IMG/VR virus record: IMGVR_UViG_3300030106_004514
Span: 1-38,497 of that record
Length of the DNA: 38,497 nt
Reading direction: 5' to 3' (one strand)
DNA from: a virus
The notes under the pieces are model-generated. The model saw nothing but the letters and a program-made list of their open reading frames with translations, was not told where the DNA came from and did not search any database. The translations under genes were made by a program, and so were the position numbers. Position 1 is the first letter of the stretch; each line of letters begins with the position of its first letter. This document shows positions 19,800 to 28,218 of this stretch, in pieces.

Positions 19800-20024
19800 T
19801 TAGAGGATGATCGGTTCAAGATTATCTCCCAGCAAATCATTGAGGGACACACCCAAAACCTTCCCAGCCTTGCACCAGAAATGAATCGAACCAGACCTCT
19901 CCTTCTTCTCAACAAGACAGAGGTACGAACGACTCACACCCATACGCAAAGCTAAGCTAGCCTGAGTAAAACCCTGGGACTCTCGGACCTCCTTCAAGTT
20001 GTGCTGAATTACTGACTCATCCAT
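19800..20024 (-). CDS. Small XRE-family (Cro/CI-type) repressor
   Basis: A 74-aa protein that is almost entirely one helix-turn-helix domain (FTQASLALRMGVSRSYLCLVE, then KKE; residues 19-42), the size of Cro or of a one-domain CI-type regulator. It has no dimerisation or RecA-sensitive C-terminal domain. It starts at ATG 20024 with AGGAGG 5 nt upstream. It lies alone between two divergent arms and is flanked by inverted repeats, including a palindrome overlapping its own promoter at 20045-20073. It therefore probably represses itself and one of the arms. No integrase is present, so integration is not implied. Confidence 0.85.
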   Translation of the reverse strand: MDESVIQHNLKEVRESQGFTQASLALRMGVSRSYLCLVEKKERSGSIHFWCKAGKVLGVSLNDLLGDNLEPIIL

Positions 20025-20309: not shown

Positions 20310-20338
20310 TTGACGGAGAGAAAACGGCGTGCAATGAT
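20310..20338 (+). promoter_or_regulatory. Candidate rightward promoter
   Basis: TTGACG (20310-20315), then 17 bp, then AATGAT (20333-20338). The -35 matches sigma70 consensus at five of six positions and the -10 at four of six. It is the best spaced pair before the first rightward gene at 20416, giving a leader of about 70 nt. Not experimentally shown. Confidence 0.45.
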
Positions 20339-20381: not shown

Positions 20382-20415
20382 TGCGAGGCGCCGCATTACG
20401 TCCGAGGAGGACACC
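20382..20415 (+). promoter_or_regulatory. Structured leader 1: double hairpin with SD element
   Basis: Hairpin TGCG-aggcgc-CGCA (20382-20395) is followed after 4 nt by GTCC-GAGGA-GGAC (20400-20412), which contains the AGGAGG ribosome site, then 3 nt and ATG 20416. This is the first of five copies of this arrangement. Confidence 0.55.
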
Positions 20416-20991
20416 ATGGCGAAGCGAAAGAACTCTCCCGCGAATTACGCATACAAGGCGACCGACAAGCGAGCCGTTTACGCGGTCTGGAACCCCGCGA
20501 TTAAGCATGCGCGAAACGCATGCCTGACGTACAGCGAGGTCGACGTCCAGACGGCCAAGGGCTTGCGTGACCTCGCGTTGAAGTGCATGCCCGACGGGTG
20601 GGCGATTGGCGAGAAGCTGCCGCCGATGAAGGGCAGTGGCCCGCTTGGCGGATACGCGATTGAATGCGAGGGGATGACCTTCGGCATCTACGACTGGCCT
20701 CGCGGCCGGAAGGGCATCCGCGTTCTCGTGCCCGTGGAGGGATGCGAGACCCAGACCGCCGCGCTCCAGGCCGCTGGTCGCCGGTTCGCGAGGAGTGGCG
20801 TATGGGGCAAGGCCATCGCCGAGGGCCGGAAGCCCAAGGCATCCGCGAAGACGCAGGAGGCCGTGAGCGAGGCCAAGGCCGAGGCCGTCGTCGAGGTCGC
20901 GAAGGATGCGCCCGTGGGGGTTGACGCGGATGCGTTGGCAGCCATCGTCGCCGAGGCTGTCGCCAAGGCGATGGCCGCCGTCCTCGCATAG
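20416..20991 (+). CDS. Hypothetical early protein 1
   Basis: A 191-aa protein, first gene of the rightward arm. It begins MAKRKNSPANYAYKATDKRA; the first 130 residues are basic and mixed alpha/beta, with several aromatic residues. Residues 130-191 are an Ala/Val/Glu/Lys-rich helical tail (AVSEAKAEAVVEVAKDAPVG, then DADALAAIVAEAVAKAMAAV). No signal peptide, membrane segment or known motif. The basic globular part plus helical tail could bind nucleic acid and oligomerise; that is a guess. It has its own SD hairpin and contains three GCATGC words. As a first early gene it is a candidate host-takeover or regulatory protein. Confidence 0.7.
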   Translation: MAKRKNSPANYAYKATDKRAVYAVWNPAIKHARNACLTYSEVDVQTAKGLRDLALKCMPDGWAIGEKLPPMKGSGPLGGYAIECEGMTFGIYDWPRGRKGIRVLVPVEGCETQTAALQAAGRRFARSGVWGKAIAEGRKPKASAKTQEAVSEAKAEAVVEVAKDAPVGVDADALAAIVAEAVAKAMAAVLA

Positions 20992-21123
20992 GCGTTAACG
21001 CCAGCACGTTCGGATGCGTTGGGGGGCTTCGGTCCCTCAACGCCATTCGGCGTTGGTGCATGGATATCCGTGCGTCAACGTCGCATGCAATCCGGCATGC
21101 GAATTAGGTCCGAGGAGGACAAC
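20991..21123 (+). promoter_or_regulatory. Structured leader 2 with mutually exclusive hairpins
   Basis: In order: a palindrome GGCGTTAACGCC (20991-21002); a 12-bp hairpin 21016-21043 with loop TTCG closed by C-G and two G-U pairs; a 7-bp hairpin CAACGCC-ATTC-GGCGTTG (21038-21055) sharing bases 21038-21043 with the preceding one; TCGCATGC-aatccg-GCATGCGA (21081-21102); and the SD hairpin GTCC-GAGGA-GGAC (21108-21120) 3 nt before ATG 21124. The shared arm means the second and third hairpins cannot form together. Confidence 0.6.
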
Positions 21124-21465
21124 ATGGGAAAATTTGACGACGCCTTACGCATGGCAGTGCGTCCGCGAAATGCGAGCCAGGTCGCCGCATGCGAGACGGT
21201 ACTCATGCAAGAGTTCATGCATGTGTTGATGGACAGGGGGCCACGCAAGCCGCTGGACATCTGCATGAGTGAACTGCCGAGCCTAGCGCATGCGGTTCGT
21301 GTCATGCCTGACGACATGTACTACGCCACCTGGCGCATGCTCTACCTGTACGTGGAGCATCCGAGCCCAGAGCTACTCGCCGCATGCGAGGGCGACGAGG
21401 CGCATGCCAAGGAGGCTATCGAGGGAGTGCTTGGTGCCATCATGACCCTCAGGCATGCGTCCTGA
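21124..21465 (+). CDS. Hypothetical early protein 2
   Basis: A 113-aa soluble, helical protein beginning MGKFDDALRMAVRPRNASQV. The start at 21124 is set by the leader SD hairpin; a longer frame from 21019 would translate the hairpins. It has four Cys and many Met and His residues (as in AACETVLMQEFMHVLMD). No known family was recognised. The gene holds seven GCATGC words falling in different codon phases: Ala-Cys, Ala-His-Ala and Arg-Met. The word is therefore not imposed by one amino-acid pair. Confidence 0.7.
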   Translation: MGKFDDALRMAVRPRNASQVAACETVLMQEFMHVLMDRGPRKPLDICMSELPSLAHAVRVMPDDMYYATWRMLYLYVEHPSPELLAACEGDEAHAKEAIEGVLGAIMTLRHAS

Positions 21466-21574
21466 GCCGGTCCGCTGCTCGATGCACATGAGTGACGGCA
21501 TGCGACACAGCATGTCGCACTCATGTGTATCAGGCATGGGATTGGTCCTATGCAATCGGTCCAAGGAGGACACT
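21466..21574 (+). promoter_or_regulatory. Structured leader 3 with a long bulged hairpin
   Basis: GATGCACATGAGTG (21481-21494) pairs with CACTCATGTGTATC (21518-21531), 14 bp with one G-U. It continues on the right arm as CGACA/TGTCG (21503-21507 with 21513-21517), leaving an 8-nt bulge ACGGCATG on the left. Next come GATTG-gtcctatg-CAATC (21540-21557) and the SD hairpin GTCC-AAGGA-GGAC (21559-21571), 3 nt before the GTG start 21575. No T run follows, so it is not an intrinsic terminator. Confidence 0.6.
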
Positions 21575-21790
21575 GTGAGTAAGAGCAAGAAGCATGCGAC
21601 CACGCATGCAAAGGAAATCACGATGGCCGTGGTCATCGCGGATGCAACGCCGGAGAACATCGCCATCGCCAAGGGATGGGTCGCCGACAACAAGCGCAGC
21701 CAGCGCATGCGTAAGGACAAGCGCGACAGCCAGCGCATGGACATCATGGCGAATGCCATTCGTGAGTGGCAGAAGGCAGGTGACGCATGA
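21575..21790 (+). CDS. Hypothetical early protein 3 (small, basic)
   Basis: A 71-aa protein starting at GTG 21575, the only non-ATG start among the five leader genes, positioned exactly 3 nt after the SD hairpin. It begins (M)SKSKKHATTHAKEITMAVVI and is very basic (WVADNKRSQRMRKDKRDSQR in the middle), so it may bind nucleic acid. It overlaps the next gene by 4 nt (ATGA). Not recognised. Confidence 0.65.
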   Translation: MSKSKKHATTHAKEITMAVVIADATPENIAIAKGWVADNKRSQRMRKDKRDSQRMDIMANAIREWQKAGDA

Positions 21791-22086: not shown

Positions 22087-22211
22087 TGCATGCGGGTCGG
22101 CTGAGCACCGGCCCCTTGCTTCATGCATGCGACGCCACTTGTCGCATGTATGGAGCAGGATGTTCCTGCAATTACCCCCTCATGCGAGGGACTACATCCG
22201 AGGAGGATGAG
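22087..22211 (+). promoter_or_regulatory. Structured leader 4 with a 16-bp G-U-containing stem
   Basis: GCTTCATGCATGCGAC (22118-22133) pairs with GTCGCATGTATGGAGC (22141-22156): 16 bp with two G-U pairs and loop GCCACTT. GCAGGA-TGT-TCCTGC (22155-22169), CCCTC-ATGC-GAGGG (22177-22190) and the SD hairpin ATCC-GAGGA-GGAT (22196-22208) follow, then 3 nt and ATG 22212. In this copy the closing G-C pair of the SD hairpin is replaced by A-T on both sides, a compensatory change. Confidence 0.6.
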
Positions 22212-22409
22212 ATGATTGAGAATCTAGATGCGAAGACGAGAGAGCAGATTGGCAACTCGTGCCACGGATACACCGTGTTCGAGACGACGGATGAGGAGGC
22301 ACGACTTGCACGCATCCAAGAGCTAGCCAAGCTGCTCAGTGCGGACGCATGCGATGGGCCAGAGCTACTGGCTGACCTCGAGCTTCACCCGTACGCCGAC
22401 CAGGCATAG
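22212..22409 (+). CDS. Hypothetical early protein 5 (small, acidic)
   Basis: A 65-aa acidic, mostly helical protein (MIENLDAKTREQIGNSCHGY at the start, then DEEARLARIQELAKLLSADA). The start at 22212 is fixed by the SD hairpin ending 3 nt upstream; a longer frame from 22086 would include the 16-bp stem. No membrane segment or known motif. Small acidic early phage proteins often mimic nucleic acid or bind host enzymes; nothing here proves that. Confidence 0.65.
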   Translation: MIENLDAKTREQIGNSCHGYTVFETTDEEARLARIQELAKLLSADACDGPELLADLELHPYADQA

Positions 22410-22539
22410 GACACGTGAGAGTACACCCCAACCAGGGGGCAGCTTTAGCTGTACCCCCTGGTGGGGTGGTTTGGTTTTCGGCGGGGTGGTCCCGCCAAAT
22501 TTCCCCCTCATGCGAGGGGATAAGTCCGAGGAGGACACG
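22410..22539 (+). promoter_or_regulatory. Structured leader 5 with four successive hairpins, possible attenuator
   Basis: A long hairpin 22425-22467 has 14 bp (ACCCC, bulged A, ACCAGGGGG against CCCCCTGGTGGGGT) topped by CAGC-TTTA-GCTG and followed by GGTTTGGTTTT. Then GGCGGG-gtggt-CCCGCC (22480-22496), CCCCTC-ATGC-GAGGGG (22504-22519) and the SD hairpin GTCC-GAGGA-GGAC (22524-22536), 3 nt before ATG 22540. The T-rich stretch after the first hairpin is interrupted, so it could act as a partial terminator. Confidence 0.6.
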
Positions 22540-23115
22540 ATGAAGAGAGTTGACATTCGCATACGGTGGCCCGACCCAACCCTGGATACGGGATGGTCTT
22601 GGCGACTCGCCAAGGGCTACACGAAGGAGGCATGGGATGGGAAGATGGCCCTTCACATGCCGGTGCTTGACATGGGACAGGCAAAGACTCGCAACGAGTG
22701 GGTCTTGAGTCACCTGCCATCAGGCGGCCTAATCACGGTCCTGAAGCGGCCACTCAAGGATGCGGCTGCGGCTGTGGATTTGGCATGCGCTAGCGTGGAC
22801 GACTGGCGTCACATCATGGAGTACGACCACCATGCGGTGGATGCGGGGCCACGGCACTGGCCGTGCTTTGAGATGCGAGAGTTCAGGGATGCGGTGAATG
22901 ACGAGTGCAAGATGCTGCATGAGTACATGCGCAACCCCGTGCTGACTGCCGCATACAACCAGATGTTCGACGTCGCGCTGACGTATGCGGATTGCGATGC
23001 CCCTGGCTGTGGGTACACCGCATGCGTGGAGCCCGATGCGGACTACCCCTGCCCCGAATGCGACGAGGGCCGCATCGTCTCCCCCATCGAGCGAGTTCTC
23101 GGGGGGGAGGTGTAG
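22540..23115 (+). CDS. Hypothetical early protein 6 with C-terminal zinc ribbon-like motif
   Basis: A 191-aa protein. The N-terminal 145 residues are unrecognised mixed alpha/beta sequence rich in Trp and His. Residues about 148-180 hold Cys residues spaced as C-x4-C-x4-C-x8-C-x2-C (CDAPGCGYTACVEPDADYPC, then PEC), suggesting a bound zinc. The start ATG 22540 follows the fifth SD hairpin; the longer frame from 22339 would read through the leader hairpins. It is the last of the genes with a structured leader; the following genes are separated by only a few bases or overlap. Confidence 0.7.
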   Translation: MKRVDIRIRWPDPTLDTGWSWRLAKGYTKEAWDGKMALHMPVLDMGQAKTRNEWVLSHLPSGGLITVLKRPLKDAAAAVDLACASVDDWRHIMEYDHHAVDAGPRHWPCFEMREFRDAVNDECKMLHEYMRNPVLTAAYNQMFDVALTYADCDAPGCGYTACVEPDADYPCPECDEGRIVSPIERVLGGEV

Positions 23116-23117
23116 TC

Positions 23118-23819
23118 ATGCGTATTCTCGCAACGGCTAGGTCTCGCAACAGGCAGACCGGGGATGTGCCGACCGTGACCATCGGTCGCACGAAGAAAGA
23201 GATGCGTGCTTCATGCGCTCACTCCAAGTGCTCGCTGTTCCACGCATCCATGAAGGCCAAGTCCGACAAGGCATGGGCCAAGAAGAATGCGGCGGGCAAC
23301 ATCAGGTGCTACGCATGGGATGGGACGCCGAACATGGCAGCCCAATCCAAGGCGAAGAAGCATGCGAGGGGAGGGGATACCTCGCTTCGCAAGGCACTCG
23401 ATGACCGGCTCTGGTCAGCACGCATGGTCAGGGTCAGCGACCTCGGTGACATCTCGTGGCTCACGGAGGATGAGGCATGCGAGTTGCTCGACACCATCGA
23501 GGACGAGGGGCTCACGCCTATCGGCTACACGCATGGGTGGGGCAGAGCGCCATGGCTCAAGGGCAGGGTGATGGCTAGCGTTAGCAACGCAGACGAGTTC
23601 ATCCATGCGTGGGTTCGTGGGTGGGGATGCACTGTCATCCTGCCCCCTAACCACGATGAGCCGACGTTCACCGTGCGTGGTGTGACTGGCACCGTATGCC
23701 CGACCAAGCTGGGCGAACCGATTGATTGCAATACATGCCTTAAGTGCGATGGGAATGGGCTCATCGGCTTCCCAAGGCATGACCATTACGGCCGACATGT
23801 GGCCAAAGGAGTGAAGTGA
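23118..23819 (+). CDS. Cysteine-rich DUF7227/GP88-like phage protein
   Basis: A 233-aa protein beginning MRILATARSRNRQTGDVPTV and carrying clustered cysteines: CAHSKCSLFH near residue 33, CYAWDGTP near 60, CP near 194 and CNTCLKC near 205. GYTHGW and LMASVSN-like segments (here VMASVSNADE) are other typical blocks. This pattern matches, from memory, phage proteins annotated DUF7227 or grouped with mycobacteriophage gp88, whose cysteines probably hold a metal or Fe-S cluster; the biochemical role is unknown. The start ATG 23118 is 2 bp after the previous stop. It is coupled to the next gene through TGATG at 23819. Confidence 0.7.
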   Translation: MRILATARSRNRQTGDVPTVTIGRTKKEMRASCAHSKCSLFHASMKAKSDKAWAKKNAAGNIRCYAWDGTPNMAAQSKAKKHARGGDTSLRKALDDRLWSARMVRVSDLGDISWLTEDEACELLDTIEDEGLTPIGYTHGWGRAPWLKGRVMASVSNADEFIHAWVRGWGCTVILPPNHDEPTFTVRGVTGTVCPTKLGEPIDCNTCLKCDGNGLIGFPRHDHYGRHVAKGVK

Positions 23820-24172
23820 TGAAGCTGAACGTGGATGTGAGTGAGTCGTTGCACAAGAGCATGCAGCTTGCGGTGCTTGGCATGAAGGAGGTGACCGAGG
23901 CCACCTTCGAGGAGTTCTTCATTCGGATGTGCATGTATCACCGTGCGTTCGGGCTCGACATGCAGTACCCGACGACCGAGACCGCATGGCGTGCATTCAT
24001 CGGGGTCAAGAACCCTCGTGTCATCCCCGAGGAGATTGGCGAGTGGTGGCACCGCATGGGTGAGAGCCTGAGCTACGACCTGCTGCACAAGCACAGCATG
24101 GACTACGAGTACTCCTGGTTCAGCGAGGACTGGGATGCACACGAGGCTGCATGCGGGAAGGACGAGGCATGA
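23819..24172 (+). CDS. Hypothetical protein, early operon
   Basis: A 117-aa acidic soluble protein (MKLNVDVSESLHKSMQLAVL at the start), with many Trp and Tyr in the second half (GEWWHRMGESLSYDLLHKHS, then YEYSWFSEDW). The first 25 residues, a short beta strand followed by a helix, recall ribbon-helix-helix repressors but lack the basic strand. ATG 23819 forms TGATG with the preceding stop and has AAGGAG upstream. The end overlaps the next start as ATGA. Function unknown. Confidence 0.65.
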   Translation: MKLNVDVSESLHKSMQLAVLGMKEVTEATFEEFFIRMCMYHRAFGLDMQYPTTETAWRAFIGVKNPRVIPEEIGEWWHRMGESLSYDLLHKHSMDYEYSWFSEDWDAHEAACGKDEA

Positions 24173-25581
24173 GTGAGAGCGAAGCAACTGAGCCTATGGA
24201 GGGCAATAGCATGAGTGATGAGAGCAACAACATGAGTGATGAGAACAACAACAACACCCAGGAGGGTATGAGCATGAGTGACAACGACGCAGTGGAGAAG
24301 TTCGAGAAGACCCTGGCAACCTCTGGCCTTGAGGCCGCATGCGATGAGTGGGGGCAGGGATACGATGACGAGATGGAGCGCAAGCTCCAGGCGCATGTGG
24401 AGAAGAGCTTCGAGGAGAATGAGCGCACCCTCGCCGAGCGGGTAGCTGCACTGGATGCCAAGGCAGGGTCGCCGGAGGAGTTCAACAACTCCCTGCCGAA
24501 TGGCAAGCTTGTACAAACCCTATGCATGACATCGGAGGCTGTGCATGCGGTGAACAAGAGGACCCTGGAGAACAGCATGGGTGTGTTGAAGAACACCAAG
24601 GCTGTGAACCAGACCATCAAGGCCGTGGTCAAGGCGCAGGACAACATGTCCATGCTCAAGGATTACGTATCCGCAGTGGAGACACACCTTGAGGACCTCA
24701 TCGACGGGGCGACCACCGCATTCGAGGAGCGCATCACCGAGGAGAGGGGCCTCGCCAAGGAGAAGCTGGATGACAGGCTCATGGAGTTCGAGTCCGACCT
24801 CTCGGATTTGCACGATGCCCAGGAGCGCATCCAGGGCTTCGAGGATTTGCTGGCCAACCTGCCGGTGGACCTGAACGAGGTCGGGGATGCGCTGGAGGAC
24901 CACGACAACAGGCTCACCGATGCAACGCATGCCATCGAGGAGTTGACCTCTGCGCTGGATGACCTGTCGGATGCGCCGACGGCATGGCCTACGGAGGAGG
25001 AGAAGAGGGAGATACGCATTGAACTGCGCTCGGATGCAAAGGAGGACCTGACCGAGTGGCTCGACAACAACGTATGGTCGGACGTGGATGACCGTTGCGA
25101 GGCTGTGCTCAACGAGATGGACCTGTCGGAACGGCTCGACATGTATGAGCTAGGCAAGCTCGTCGTCCAGGCCATGGATGAGTCATCCCTCTCGCTGATG
25201 GCGGAGAAGCTCCCCGACCACCTGTGCATGAGTGACCTGGCAACCGAGGTCGTGTACGAGATGGACATGTGGGATGTGACCCAGCAGGTCATGGACAACA
25301 TGGACATGCACGACCTGGCCGAGAACGTCATACGTGAGTTGGACATGGACCAGATTCGGGAGGAGGTGCTCGAAGGCGTCGAGGTCGTTGAGCGGTGTGT
25401 TCCGCATATCGAGGACCGCATCCATACGCTGGAGGAGAAGGTCAAGGCCATGTCAGGCGAGGCAGACACGGACACCAAGGTGCATACGGTGGACGTGGAT
25501 GGCCTGGCCTTCAGGGTGGACAAGCTGGAGCGTGTGTTCCACAGCATGCGTAGCCTCATCATCGACTCGGAGGAGTTCTAG
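24169..25581 (+). CDS. Acidic coiled-coil protein with tandem 13-residue repeats
   Basis: A 470-aa very acidic protein with three parts. Residues 1-38 are low-complexity with repeated MSDE/MSDN units. Residues 40-310 are long coiled coil (for example LDDRLMEFESDLSDLHDAQE). Residues about 320-405 are tandem 13-mers such as DMWDVTQQVMDNM, DMHDLAENVIREL and DMDQIREEVLEGV, followed by a final coiled coil. It starts at ATG 24169 (ATGA overlap). AGGAGG before ATG 24274 could give a second, shorter product. The 13-mers resemble leucine-ladder repeats of phage coiled-coil proteins of unknown role. It is probably a filament or scaffold between DNA-processing proteins; inference only. Confidence 0.7.
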   Translation: MSESEATEPMEGNSMSDESNNMSDENNNNTQEGMSMSDNDAVEKFEKTLATSGLEAACDEWGQGYDDEMERKLQAHVEKSFEENERTLAERVAALDAKAGSPEEFNNSLPNGKLVQTLCMTSEAVHAVNKRTLENSMGVLKNTKAVNQTIKAVVKAQDNMSMLKDYVSAVETHLEDLIDGATTAFEERITEERGLAKEKLDDRLMEFESDLSDLHDAQERIQGFEDLLANLPVDLNEVGDALEDHDNRLTDATHAIEELTSALDDLSDAPTAWPTEEEKREIRIELRSDAKEDLTEWLDNNVWSDVDDRCEAVLNEMDLSERLDMYELGKLVVQAMDESSLSLMAEKLPDHLCMSDLATEVVYEMDMWDVTQQVMDNMDMHDLAENVIRELDMDQIREEVLEGVEVVERCVPHIEDRIHTLEEKVKAMSGEADTDTKVHTVDVDGLAFRVDKLERVFHSMRSLIIDSEEF

Positions 25582-25583
25582 TC

Positions 25584-26012
25584 ATGGGTAAGGCATACAA
25601 GCAGATGAATGACCCAAGGGTAGAGGCCATCCGCACTGACAGGCTGGTTGGCATAGGCACATGTGCATACATGGACGAGTCCCTCACCGACGCTGAGCTT
25701 ATCCACGACCTCGATGCATGCGGGATAGTGGATGCACGGGAGGCCGTGCAGTGGGCCAGGCAGCGGGAGGTAGAGAGCATGGAGTTCGCCCTCAACGCCA
25801 TGGATTGCAACCCGTTCGGGAGGACGGATGCATACCGCAAGCAACTCGAAGAGTTCATCGAGGCCATGGAGGAGGACGAGCAGTGCGATGTCTTCGGGTG
25901 CGATGAACGCTCCGAGGGCGGAGGCTCTACCATGTGCGCATGGCATGCAGAAGAGGATGGGCGTGGCGACCACGAGATGGAGCGCATGCGTGACATGGAG
26001 GACGACGCATGA
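25584..26012 (+). CDS. Hypothetical protein with CxxxxC...CxxH zinc motif
   Basis: A 142-aa acidic protein. The C-terminal third has CDVFGCDERSEGGGSTMCAW, then H (residues 107-127), the C-x4-C-x12-C-x2-H arrangement found in small zinc-binding modules of many phage proteins (consensus CxVxGCxx...GxCxxH). The first 100 residues are helical and acidic. The start ATG 25584 lies 2 bp after the previous stop, and the end overlaps the next gene by 4 nt (ATGA). It may bind nucleic acid or protein through the zinc module. No catalytic motif seen. Confidence 0.65.
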   Translation: MGKAYKQMNDPRVEAIRTDRLVGIGTCAYMDESLTDAELIHDLDACGIVDAREAVQWARQREVESMEFALNAMDCNPFGRTDAYRKQLEEFIEAMEEDEQCDVFGCDERSEGGGSTMCAWHAEEDGRGDHEMERMRDMEDDA

Positions 26013-26287
26013 GCAAGCAAGACCCACGAGACCTAGCTGTACGCATCCAGGCTGACGGCATCCAAGAGCATGTGATTCCCAGGAATGGGAAGGACTTCAC
26101 GCTTGAGGAAGCTCAGGCATACGTAGGTGGATACGTCGAGGTGGTGGACTGCGGCCTTGGGATGATCTTGCTCGTCGATGAAGACGGCATGCTCAAGGGC
26201 CTGCGGCGCAACCGAGTCGCATCCGCTATGGCTGGCACCAACATCGTTGGCGATGCGTTGTTGTGCCCATCACAGATGTTCCCATAG
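26009..26287 (+). CDS. DUF3846 domain protein
   Basis: A 92-aa protein. Residues 30-90 match the DUF3846 pattern: YVGGYVEVVDCGLGMILLVD, then EDGMLKGLRRNRVASAMAG and IVGDALL. The family is common in phages and mobile elements and occurs next to recombination and anti-restriction genes; its role is not known. It starts at ATG 26009 (ATGA overlap) and is followed after 7 bp by the next GTG start with AGGAG. Confidence 0.8.
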   Translation: MSKQDPRDLAVRIQADGIQEHVIPRNGKDFTLEEAQAYVGGYVEVVDCGLGMILLVDEDGMLKGLRRNRVASAMAGTNIVGDALLCPSQMFP

Positions 26288-26294
26288 GAGAGAC

Positions 26295-26483
26295 GTGGAC
26301 AACGACAACATCGCAGCATTTCTTGTAGGCATGGAGAACGACGGCATCGAGGTGACAGACGAGCCATCGGGACGCTACGGCCTACGCATATCGGGAGACC
26401 TGGTTGGCATGTTCAACACGCCAGCCTCAGCAATTGAGTACATCGTATCCGTGCTGAAGAGCACATCGGAGGAGAGACAATGA
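26295..26483 (+). CDS. Small hypothetical protein
   Basis: A 62-aa protein read from GTG 26295, with AGGAG upstream (26286-26290) and a 7-bp gap after the DUF3846 stop. It looks like a small alpha/beta domain (IAAFLVGMENDGIEVTDEPS, then GRYGLRISGDLVGMFNTPAS and a final helix) with no membrane segment. An upstream frame to 26178 overlaps the DUF3846 gene and is not needed. Its end overlaps the Rad52-type gene start as ATGA, so the two are co-translated. Confidence 0.65.
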   Translation: MDNDNIAAFLVGMENDGIEVTDEPSGRYGLRISGDLVGMFNTPASAIEYIVSVLKSTSEERQ

Positions 26484-27169
26484 GTGACATGCAGAAGACC
26501 CTGGAGCTACTACGCAACCCATTCCCACCACAGTGCATCGAGTGGAGACCTGGCAGTGTCGCCAAGACAGGCCAGTCATGCACCCTGCTTGCATACCTGA
26601 AGGTCGATGCCATCGAGGACCGTCTCGATGAGGTCGCGCCCGACTGGTCATGCGACTACAAGCAGGGGCCTACGGGTGGGCTGCTATGCGGTATCACCAT
26701 CGGCGGCGTCACCAGGTGGGACGGCAGCGAGAACACACAGATTGAGGCCGTGAAGGGCGGTCTATCGGATGCGTTCAAGCGTGCGGCTCGGCGATGGGGT
26801 GTTGGCCGCTACCTCTGGCGGCTCGGCACGCAGTGGCATGAGACCATCGACCACCACTCGGCATTGCATGACGGCGTGAGCTATGAGAAGCTCAAGCTTG
26901 GCAACAAGTGGGGATGGGTTAGGACCCCTGACCTACCTGCATGGGCTCTTCCTGAGCCACCGAAGGACCGGAACTGGGAGGGTGAGCGCAAGGCATTCTG
27001 TGCTGAGCTTACCGACATGGGCCGCTCATACGGTGACGTGGCGGAGTTCTGCCAAGCAATGGGACGGCCCCGGCCTTCCCGCATGACAACACAGCAGCGC
27101 AGCGCGCTGATGGACTACCTCGCATCTCCCGAAGGGGCTGGTGCAATTAACGACTGGCTCGCCAGTTAG
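26480..27169 (+). CDS. Rad52-type single-strand annealing protein
   Basis: A 229-aa protein. Residues 55-115 show the Rad52/Rad22 core: SCDYKQGPTGGLLCGITIGG, then VTRWDGSEN, and VKGGLSDAFKRAARRWGVGR, then YLW. It anneals complementary single strands and would drive strand-annealing recombination that builds or repairs concatemers. It starts at ATG 26480 (ATGA overlap). An SSB-like gene follows directly, the usual pairing. The C-terminal 75 residues are a separate helical part, possibly for protein contacts. No exonuclease gene was recognised nearby to make the 3' single strands. Confidence 0.85.
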   Translation: MSDMQKTLELLRNPFPPQCIEWRPGSVAKTGQSCTLLAYLKVDAIEDRLDEVAPDWSCDYKQGPTGGLLCGITIGGVTRWDGSENTQIEAVKGGLSDAFKRAARRWGVGRYLWRLGTQWHETIDHHSALHDGVSYEKLKLGNKWGWVRTPDLPAWALPEPPKDRNWEGERKAFCAELTDMGRSYGDVAEFCQAMGRPRPSRMTTQQRSALMDYLASPEGAGAINDWLAS

Positions 27170-27179
27170 GAGAAATCAC

Positions 27180-27719
27180 ATGGGATTTACCACAGGAAAG
27201 CATACAGGAAACCAGGGCAACCAGGAGAGCAAGCGGCACCAGCCGCCTGTCCCCCAGGGCACCTACCACGTACGCATCTCGGATGCACAGTACTCGGCGG
27301 TGAAGTCGGGCAAGCAAATCGATGACGAGTCTCTCGCATGGCTCGTGTCGAAGGGCTGCCCCGATGCATGCGCTGGTCGGCTCAGGGTTGGCGACGCTGC
27401 CAAGAACCTATACGTCACGATGGAGATTGTGGGTGGCTCGTATGCCGGCCGCAAGATTCGCGAGTGGCATCTGTTCTGGCATCCGTCCATCACGGCGATG
27501 GACATCGGGCGTGGCATGGTCGAGCAGTTGTCCGTCGCATGCGGTGCGCTGTCGTGGGATGAGCCGAAGGAACTCATCGGCTGTGAACTCACGGTGCATA
27601 CGCGAGTCGAGCGGGACCCCAGGTATGGGGACAAGGTGAAGGTCAAGCTGTACGAGCCGGCAGGCCAGGCAGCACAGCAGGCACCGCCCGCATTCGATGA
27701 CCAGGACATCCCGTTCTAA
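27180..27719 (+). CDS. SSB-like protein (DUF669 type) with acidic tip
   Basis: A 179-aa protein with an OB-fold pattern seen in phage DUF669 proteins: VPQGTYHVRISDAQYSAVKS, then GGSYAGRKIREWHLFWHPSI and LSVACGALSWDEPKELIGCE. It ends FDDQDIPF, the acidic tip by which single-stranded-DNA-binding proteins recruit partners. It probably coats ssDNA and hands it to the annealing protein encoded just upstream. The start ATG 27180 has TAGGAG upstream. The stop overlaps the next start as TAATG. Confidence 0.8.
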   Translation: MGFTTGKHTGNQGNQESKRHQPPVPQGTYHVRISDAQYSAVKSGKQIDDESLAWLVSKGCPDACAGRLRVGDAAKNLYVTMEIVGGSYAGRKIREWHLFWHPSITAMDIGRGMVEQLSVACGALSWDEPKELIGCELTVHTRVERDPRYGDKVKVKLYEPAGQAAQQAPPAFDDQDIPF

Positions 27720-28012
27720 TGGGTTTCATCAACGCAGCCGAAACGTATGCGGCACGCACATCCGAGAGGAGAGGCGTTCCGTTCCGCGACTACGACATGG
27801 GTCATGTCCGCATCTATGATGCCCTAGACCAACTGCACAAAGAGATGTGCAGGATGGACAACGGCAACATACGGCTCTGGTTCGACGCATACCCTGGGCT
27901 CAGGGATATGCTGAACGACTGGGCCGAAGGGCAGAAGCTCAGGCAATGGCATGAGGAGGACGAGCCAAAGGGTGACCCTGTCATGGACCTCATCCTGGGT
28001 GAGGGCCTATGA
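27719..28012 (+). CDS. Hypothetical protein, early operon
   Basis: A 97-aa acidic helical protein (MGFINAAETYAARTSERRGV at the start). It starts at ATG 27719 in a TAATG overlap with the SSB-like gene and ends in an ATGA overlap with the zinc-finger gene, so it is translated between them. There is no membrane segment, cysteine cluster or known motif. Confidence 0.65.
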   Translation: MGFINAAETYAARTSERRGVPFRDYDMGHVRIYDALDQLHKEMCRMDNGNIRLWFDAYPGLRDMLNDWAEGQKLRQWHEEDEPKGDPVMDLILGEGL

Positions 28013-28218
28013 GCACCGTATCCTGGACGAAGGACAAGATCATCGGCACTCTGCGACAGCTTAGGCGTGGCCGCATTGAACCCTGCATCGAATGCGGGGA
28101 GGACGTGTGGGACGAGGGCGAGGTGTGGTGTGAGCCATGTCGGCAGGCGGTCATGCTTGCGGAGGCTGACGAGCACATGGCCCTTGCATACATGGACGAG
28201 GGGCCGTTGCCCCCATGA
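28009..28218 (+). CDS. Small zinc-finger protein
   Basis: A 69-aa protein. Residues 26-44 have C-x2-C-x11-C-x2-C (CIECGEDVWDEGEVWCEPC), and the rest is helical. The layout recalls the DksA/TraR zinc finger, which binds RNA polymerase, but the finger spacing is shorter and the long N-terminal coil is absent. It may be an early regulator; that is only a possibility. It is the last gene of the rightward arm, 76 bp before the terminator. Confidence 0.65.
   Translation: MSTVSWTKDKIIGTLRQLRRGRIEPCIECGEDVWDEGEVWCEPCRQAVMLAEADEHMALAYMDEGPLPP

Follow-up and report, generated by a model that had tools for sequence, protein, structure and literature searches.

Cysteine-motif genes of the rightward early operon

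The window analysed here, the complete virus record IMGVR_UViG_3300030106_004514 (38,497 bases), carries a rightward early-type operon in which four genes on the plus strand, between positions 22,540 and 28,218, encode proteins with paired cysteine motifs. The gene at 23118..23819 (+), on which the analysis centres, encodes a 233-amino acid (aa) protein of the DUF7227/GP88 superfamily (PHROG 2554) with two cysteine groups and nine cysteines in total, assigned by Pfam, PHROG and hhalign and, from structural models, predicted to form a partial barrel like that of radical S-adenosylmethionine (SAM) enzymes. The other three genes encode orphans: a 191-aa protein with a C-terminal five-cysteine, zinc-knuckle-like segment (22540..23115, +), a 142-aa protein with the motif C-x4-C-x11-C-x2-H (25584..26012, +) and a 69-aa protein with C-x2-C-x11-C-x2-C (28009..28218, +), the last two found from the list of open reading frames (ORFs) and by motif reading. 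A first-pass annotation of this DNA had listed the same four genes, and all of its ORFs, coordinates and strands were found again. The pattern it gave for 22540..23115 (C-x4-C-x4-C-x8-C-x2-C) and that for 28009..28218 were present exactly as claimed, while its spacing of x12 in the 25584..26012 motif proved to be x11.

Cysteine accounted for 59 of 2416 residues (2.4%) in 16 rightward early ORFs, one of which (26307) was taken with a wrong start, against 62 of 8725 residues (0.7%) in 21 other ORFs, a hand-picked subset of those in the window. Stretches with two paired ligands were present in 4 of the 16 and 0 of the 21, respectively, and the overall cysteine richness of the early operon accounts for part of this motif effect. 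Composition-preserving shuffles (2000 for each protein) gave P values of 0.0075 (22540), 0.215 (23118), 0.087 (25584) and 0.054 (28009), so that only the 22540 motif exceeded the expectation from the protein's own cysteine content. The set as a whole could be mostly a composition effect, a cysteine-rich operon yielding cysteine pairs by chance, as is consistent with the shuffles for three of the four proteins (P 0.054 to 0.215). We regard this as somewhat doubtful, as it fails for the 22540 motif (P 0.0075) and for the 23118 protein, in which every one of seven cysteine columns was kept in at least 63 of 65 aligned relatives. The evidence for the 23118 cysteine groups is thus conservation among relatives rather than the pattern.

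The four genes had also been described as a cluster of metal-binding proteins, several of which would bind host nucleic acid or RNA polymerase. The analysis does not support one functional cluster. Two 39-kb phage contigs (L031 and L032) resembled the window in RuvC (64 and 67%), DnaB (45 and 34%) and several other proteins, and by BLAST the 23118 relative was the only early protein that their rightward operons clearly had in common with the window, a few other early proteins of the window giving E values of 0.008 to 1 to scattered ORFs of the two contigs. For binding of host nucleic acid or RNA polymerase by any of the four proteins, this analysis yielded no supporting evidence. In 50,697 phage records tblastn found no match for the 22540 and 28009 proteins at E up to 1, and for the 25584 protein nine weak matches in Caulobacter phages, the best of which (E 0.09) fell at a gene annotated as a DNA helicase. 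Single-sequence scans of viral contigs found nothing for the 22540 and 25584 proteins, and none of the three orphans had a significant Pfam, PHROG or NCBIfam match, and hence none fell in a known zinc family. That the three bind zinc is a guess from their motifs; on this guess they would be small, mutually unrelated and fast-changing proteins that use zinc for stability.

Conservation and superfamily membership of the 23118 protein

The likeness of the 23118 protein to DUF7227/GP88 proteins, remarked on in the first-pass annotation, was borne out. Pfam PF23872 (DUF7227) matched at 27.3 bits (cut-off 27), phrog_2554 matched at E 8.8e-9, and hhalign comparison of the 23118 family (65 sequences) with DUF7227 (84 sequences) gave a probability of 98.2% (E 3.5e-14, 186 columns, both cysteine groups aligned), with 97.8% for the pair of the window protein and its relative L005 alone. 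From these profiles, the family almost certainly belongs to the DUF7227 superfamily. The two have common membership of phrog_2554, and the match extends beyond the cysteine groups to the GD region and to the terminal His. The window clade is distinguished by C-x4-C in place of C-x2-C and by an insertion ahead of strand 2, and Pfam's own profile covers just residues 171-230 of the window protein. The same profile (E up to 0.1) was matched by 38 of the 65 aligned relatives. UniProt A0A516MCS4 is a 100% identical copy of the protein. Nine matches were obtained in BFVD at E up to 0.001, the named ones being DUF7227 proteins; GP88-domain proteins started at E 0.016, and radical SAM names appeared only from E 0.3 upward. 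A PADLOC match of the window protein to Csx24 (E 0.0033) was taken as chance, since the relatives L065 and L126 did not have it.

The alignment was built from 102 family ORFs, which were reduced to 95 by start and coverage filters and to 63 by dereplication at 85%; L005 and the window protein were added (65 sequences), and L010 was substituted for L004. Seven conserved cysteines form the family signature, in an N-terminal group of three and a C-terminal group of four. In the window protein the N-terminal triad reads C33-x4-C38-x25-C64-Y65 (23214..23312, +), the family form being C-x2-C-x(6-25)-C-Y, and the C-terminal tetrad reads C194-P...C204-x2-C207-x2-C210 (23697..23747, +), each cysteine of which was present in 65 of 65 sequences. 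Altogether, five cysteine columns were complete, C64 was kept in 64 of 65, and the first cysteine stood three residues before C38 in 63 of 65 and five before it in the window protein and L005. Residues that never varied were G15, C38, Y65, R105, G110, D111, Y137, H139, S154, C194, C204, C207, C210 and H221. These include Gly110-Asp111 at the end of strand 2 (23445..23450, +) and Tyr137 and His139 of the GYTHGW motif on strand 3 (23523..23540, +).

Kinship between the window family and GP88 (Pfam PF17338; PHROG 1392) is, on profile evidence, at the superfamily level and seen by combined profiles only. A combined profile of the family and DUF7227 matched a broad GP88 set at 95.8% (E 6.9e-9) over 192 columns, in which the cysteine groups and the GD and YT motifs align, and a narrower GP88 set at 92.4%, compared with 0.3% for a column-reversed decoy. 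Separate profiles were weaker, at 34.6% for DUF7227 against GP88 (87.9% for the broad set) and 16.2% for the 23118 family (18.3%). PHROG cross-matches linked a DUF7227 protein to phrog_1392 (E 1.4e-5) and a GP88 protein to phrog_2554 (E 1.4e-4). PF17338 did not match the window protein at E up to 10; among phage records carrying the 23118 family it matched in 0 of 22, and DUF5131 in 0 of 44. GP88 and the 23118 family occupy the same operon slot in two mycobacteriophages (see below), but the cysteine spacing of GP88 differs from that of the window family, and the genes in the slot align over at most 14 residues by BLASTP (E 0.55). In a passage of PMC11797047 on cluster K phages, gp88 is a gene number.

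A further candidate relative was DUF5131 (TIGR04471; PADLOC PDC-M30B and PDC-M41B; PHROG 2045), which has a similar GC..GC..CYA motif near the N-terminus but, in the sequences inspected, no CP...CxxCxxC tetrad. The Pfam GP88 profile gave five weak matches to DUF5131 ORFs, two of them above its cut-off; one of the five ORFs overlaps a PF07505 match and four were assigned to DUF5131 by reading the sequence. The NCBI model TIGR04471, 'radical SAM mobile pair protein A', was matched by 5 of 5 DUF5131 proteins tested (E 2.3e-12 to 6.6e-28), in all cases below its equivalog cut-off. One DUF5131 protein (L162) matched the PADLOC phage-defence-candidate models PDC-M30B (E 1.7e-112) and PDC-M41B (E 1.4e-110), whereas the window family has no such match; cousins of the 23118 family may thus stand on the defence side. 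No paper on a DUF7227, DUF5131 or GP88 family protein, or on the radical SAM mobile pair, was found in the open-access literature collection.

Predicted fold and the case for iron-sulfur clusters

Structure prediction and fold search, suggested with the first-pass annotation, returned a partial barrel for the 23118 protein, with radical SAM proteins ranked at the top but at low scores. The AlphaFold2 (AF2) model of the window protein had a mean predicted local distance difference test (pLDDT) value of 80.2, and that of the relative L065 a pLDDT of 96.7 and a predicted template modelling score (pTM) of 0.92. The L065 model is a six-strand alpha/beta partial barrel with two further strands preceding the core, and in both models the order of elements (with strands in our own core numbering) is strand 1, cysteine triad, helix 1, strand 2 ending in Gly-Asp, strands 3-5, tetrad, strand 6 and last helix. 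By analogy, Gly110-Asp111 would take the place of the GGE motif of radical SAM enzymes. In VIA searches, radical SAM proteins filled the top 15 rows for L065 (representing 8 distinct proteins), with Z from 4.6 (root-mean-square deviation (rmsd) 4.5, 149 aligned) to 3.3, and they took 10 of the top 11 for the window model, led by QueE with Z 6.6 (rmsd 5.5, 164 aligned); the labels were read from titles and the ranking has no unrelated-barrel baseline. The likeness to radical SAM structures (QueE, viperin, PFL-activating enzyme (PFL-AE) and MoaA) consists of the top structural matches and of three cysteines placed after strand 1 in the models, and the differences are the missing sequence match, the other cysteine spacing and the low Z values.

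A number of results weighed against a radical SAM assignment. All VIA Z values were below 7, a level that the tool itself terms common, and Foldseek returned nothing below E 0.03 for either model. hhalign probabilities of the family, and of GP88 too, against PFL-AE and MoaA-like sets were 0.1 to 3.6%, compared with 99.1% for PFL-AE against the MoaA-like set (14 of 15 loci used for each of these sets). The family, DUF7227 or merged profiles reached 0.1 to 1.5% against DUF5131 (20 of 26 extracted ORFs), GP88 against DUF5131 gave an unconvincing 0.2, 7.4 and 19.6%, and the DUF5131 set itself failed against PFL-AE/MoaA-like sequences (0.2%), so that the bridge from DUF5131 to radical SAM depends on the name given by NCBI. 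The same comparison included a TIGR04471-like set of 29 of 30 loci. None of 10 proteins drawn from the family, DUF7227 and GP88 matched an NCBIfam radical SAM model, and the family spacing C-x2-C-x(6-25)-C is not the canonical C-x3-C-x2-C. Zinc is also possible at one or both cysteine sites. The window protein had no Pfam or NCBIfam radical SAM match, and searches of PDB sequences with the protein and with the family profile gave none at E up to 10. A single match of the DUF5131 protein L162 to PDB sequences (E 0.22) was judged to be chance. Radical SAM members with other cysteine spacings exist. Radical SAM identity is not established by sequence, and the VIA Z values alone are unconvincing. 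Given the negative profile comparisons, the radical SAM reading is based on the order of the structural matches, the position of the triad and the NCBI-named DUF5131 bridge.

In the mechanism we propose, the 23118 protein would fold as a (beta/alpha)6 partial barrel and bind two iron-sulfur clusters. The first would sit on the triad, in the loop that follows strand 1, with one site left open in the manner of radical SAM enzymes; the second, fully ligated, would be bound by the tetrad ahead of the last strand. The first-pass annotation had supposed that one of the four proteins may carry an iron-sulfur cluster, and this is retained as the favoured prediction for the 23118 protein, which on balance probably carries at least one. 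That it is an active radical SAM enzyme is a tentative hypothesis. The same fold could instead belong to a structural metal protein that binds zinc or an inert cluster through the seven cysteines and acts as a non-catalytic inhibitor or adaptor on a host protein or nucleic acid; the low fold scores, the non-canonical triad spacing, the missing sequence link to catalytic radical SAM families and the solitary gene are all consistent with this. Nevertheless, R105, D111, Y137, H139, S154 and H221 were invariant in 65 of 65 relatives, and GD, YTH and the late His recurred as invariant in a small DUF7227 alignment (4 sequences), and such invariant non-cysteine polar residues resemble an active site rather than a scaffold. 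We consider the structural alternative possible but less likely.

Distribution, operon position and proposed role

The 23118 family is widespread in phages, yet unstudied. In the collection of 50,697 phage records, the family (L065 as query) was present in 148 records from many hosts, DUF7227 in 185 and GP88 in 377, including D29; among the matches listed for the three families, 136 of 140 were annotated as 'hypothetical protein', and 57 of 60 for L065 alone. With the window protein as query, tblastn found 27 Mycobacterium phage records. A profile scan of viral contigs returned at least 600 stretches and at least 586 confirmed relatives, of which 80 were kept, while single-sequence scans of these contigs with the 23118 protein or with DUF7227 found none, as did a first scan of genome contigs for the family. 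Plasmids searched with the window protein gave a single match (E 0.3).

Relatives were also observed on plasmids, five of them cyanobacterial (190-223 kb) and one from Methylobacterium (128 kb). In Nostocales the family was multi-copy, with six loci in Calothrix parasitica NIES-267 (within the set L117-L160), and the copies were accompanied by a conserved cassette whose small genes, one of them DUF6876, were present in 27 to 36 of 39 loci. Near the family in 13 of the 39 there was also a gene for a large protein (1505 aa in L149, at L149:672-5189), for which Pfam gave nothing at E up to 0.01. Site-specific transposons were found inside 23118-family copies in Calothrix genomes (L148, L151, L153, L156-L160). 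Elements with three integrase-family genes interrupted three copies directly after the first cysteine of CxxCxxC, a related element preceded two copies cut directly after the CYV/CFV triad, and TnsA-like/Mu-type transposase, TniB and TniQ genes adjoined N-terminally cut copies (Pfam domains of these elements were run on L148 and L156 only). Conserved cysteine codons may thus serve as transposon insertion targets.

The early-operon setting given to the 23118 gene in the first-pass annotation was upheld. The same operon encodes a Rad52/Erf-type single-strand annealing protein (26480..27169, +; Pfam Rad52_Rad22 E 2.1e-10, phrog_1097 E 1.1e-44), and next to it lies a DUF669 protein that is probably a single-stranded DNA-binding protein (SSB) (27180..27719, +; Pfam DUF669 E 3.6e-7, phrog_2300 (unknown) E 2e-9, phrog_6015 (SSB) E 0.0019). 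Divergent from the operon is a helix-turn-helix (HTH)-like regulator (19800..20024, -), assigned as HTH by reading the sequence and with a homologue in L031. A 476-aa acidic early protein, coiled-coil-like by reading, is encoded mid-operon (24151-25581) and had no match over Pfam cut-offs. A scan for sigma-70 promoters gave 2 matches, one of them upstream of the operon at 20310-20338 (shuffle mean 3.5), and terminator-like sites numbered 9 (shuffle mean 3.7). Sequence comparison also revealed a similar leader with TCCGAGGAGGA (in one copy TCCAAGGAGGA) upstream of several early genes, at 20393-20432, 21101-21140, 21552-21591, 22170-22215 and 22498-22556, two copies having in common a longer stretch with CCCCCTCATGCGAGGG. 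This repeated leader (TCCGAGGAGGAC) is probably a shared ribosome-binding context. Rfam models matched nowhere in the operon, leaders included, at E up to 1, and megablast found no DNA relatives of the 20-32 kb region in phages.

The slot in other phages points to early use of the gene. Maminiaina gp96 (GP88) and the Equemioh13 relative of the 23118 protein occupy the same right-end operon slot, in which five flanking genes are 73, 64, 79, 74 and 60% identical and the slot genes themselves are unalignable; the two phages have related right ends and belong to cluster A. In D29 the GP88 gene lies near the right end. Passages on D29 RNA-seq (PMC5712189) describe right-arm genes as switched on at 15 min from near Pleft, the GP88 gene being unnamed in those passages, and a passage on cluster A phages states that Hammer 103-related genes, which lie downstream of Pleft, are expressed early (PMC7474061). 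LUZ100 gp04, which carries a fragment matching L065 residues 2-52, lies downstream of the host promoters P1 and P2 with the terminator T1 between, and these promoters are assigned to early genes in the LUZ100 report (PMC10134795). By analogy with these phages, the 23118 gene probably has an early accessory role. No dedicated partner recurred among companion genes over 102 loci, the most frequent (integrase-like by reading) being present in 21; as the loci are of unequal length, some are near-copies and the family itself was joined in 90 of 103, companions are undercounted. An enzyme without a kept pathway partner would most likely act on something supplied by the host.

An enzyme of nucleotide or DNA modification, acting on phage DNA precursors, would instead be directed at the phage itself. 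Such a role is suggested by a CRP-403 relative near thymidylate synthase, ribonucleotide reductase and glutaredoxin genes and by the S-EIVl thymidylate synthase, two genes from its GP88 relative. No nucleotide gene was, however, among the top 40 companion clusters over the 102 loci, nor among 10 window proteins scanned with Pfam and PHROG, and we consider self-modification improbable. The best reading, to which we give about even chances, is that of a stand-alone early iron-sulfur protein, built like a radical SAM enzyme, by which a host target is modified. The protein would be made early in infection and work alone, and most likely it would act on a macromolecule or metabolite of the host by radical-type chemistry, in host takeover or counter-defence, a purpose preferred because of the early-type position, the spread across unrelated phages and the stand-alone gene.

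More speculatively, DUF7227, GP88 and the window family may together constitute an unrecognised phage radical SAM superfamily, with a non-canonical triad and an auxiliary cluster, fired early by a great many phages against a common host target; its cousins would be the DUF5131 proteins that bacteria have in candidate defence systems. A ready genetic system is at hand in the mycobacteriophages that exchange the slot gene, and a testable prediction of enzyme class for so common a gene would open a chapter of phage-host chemistry.

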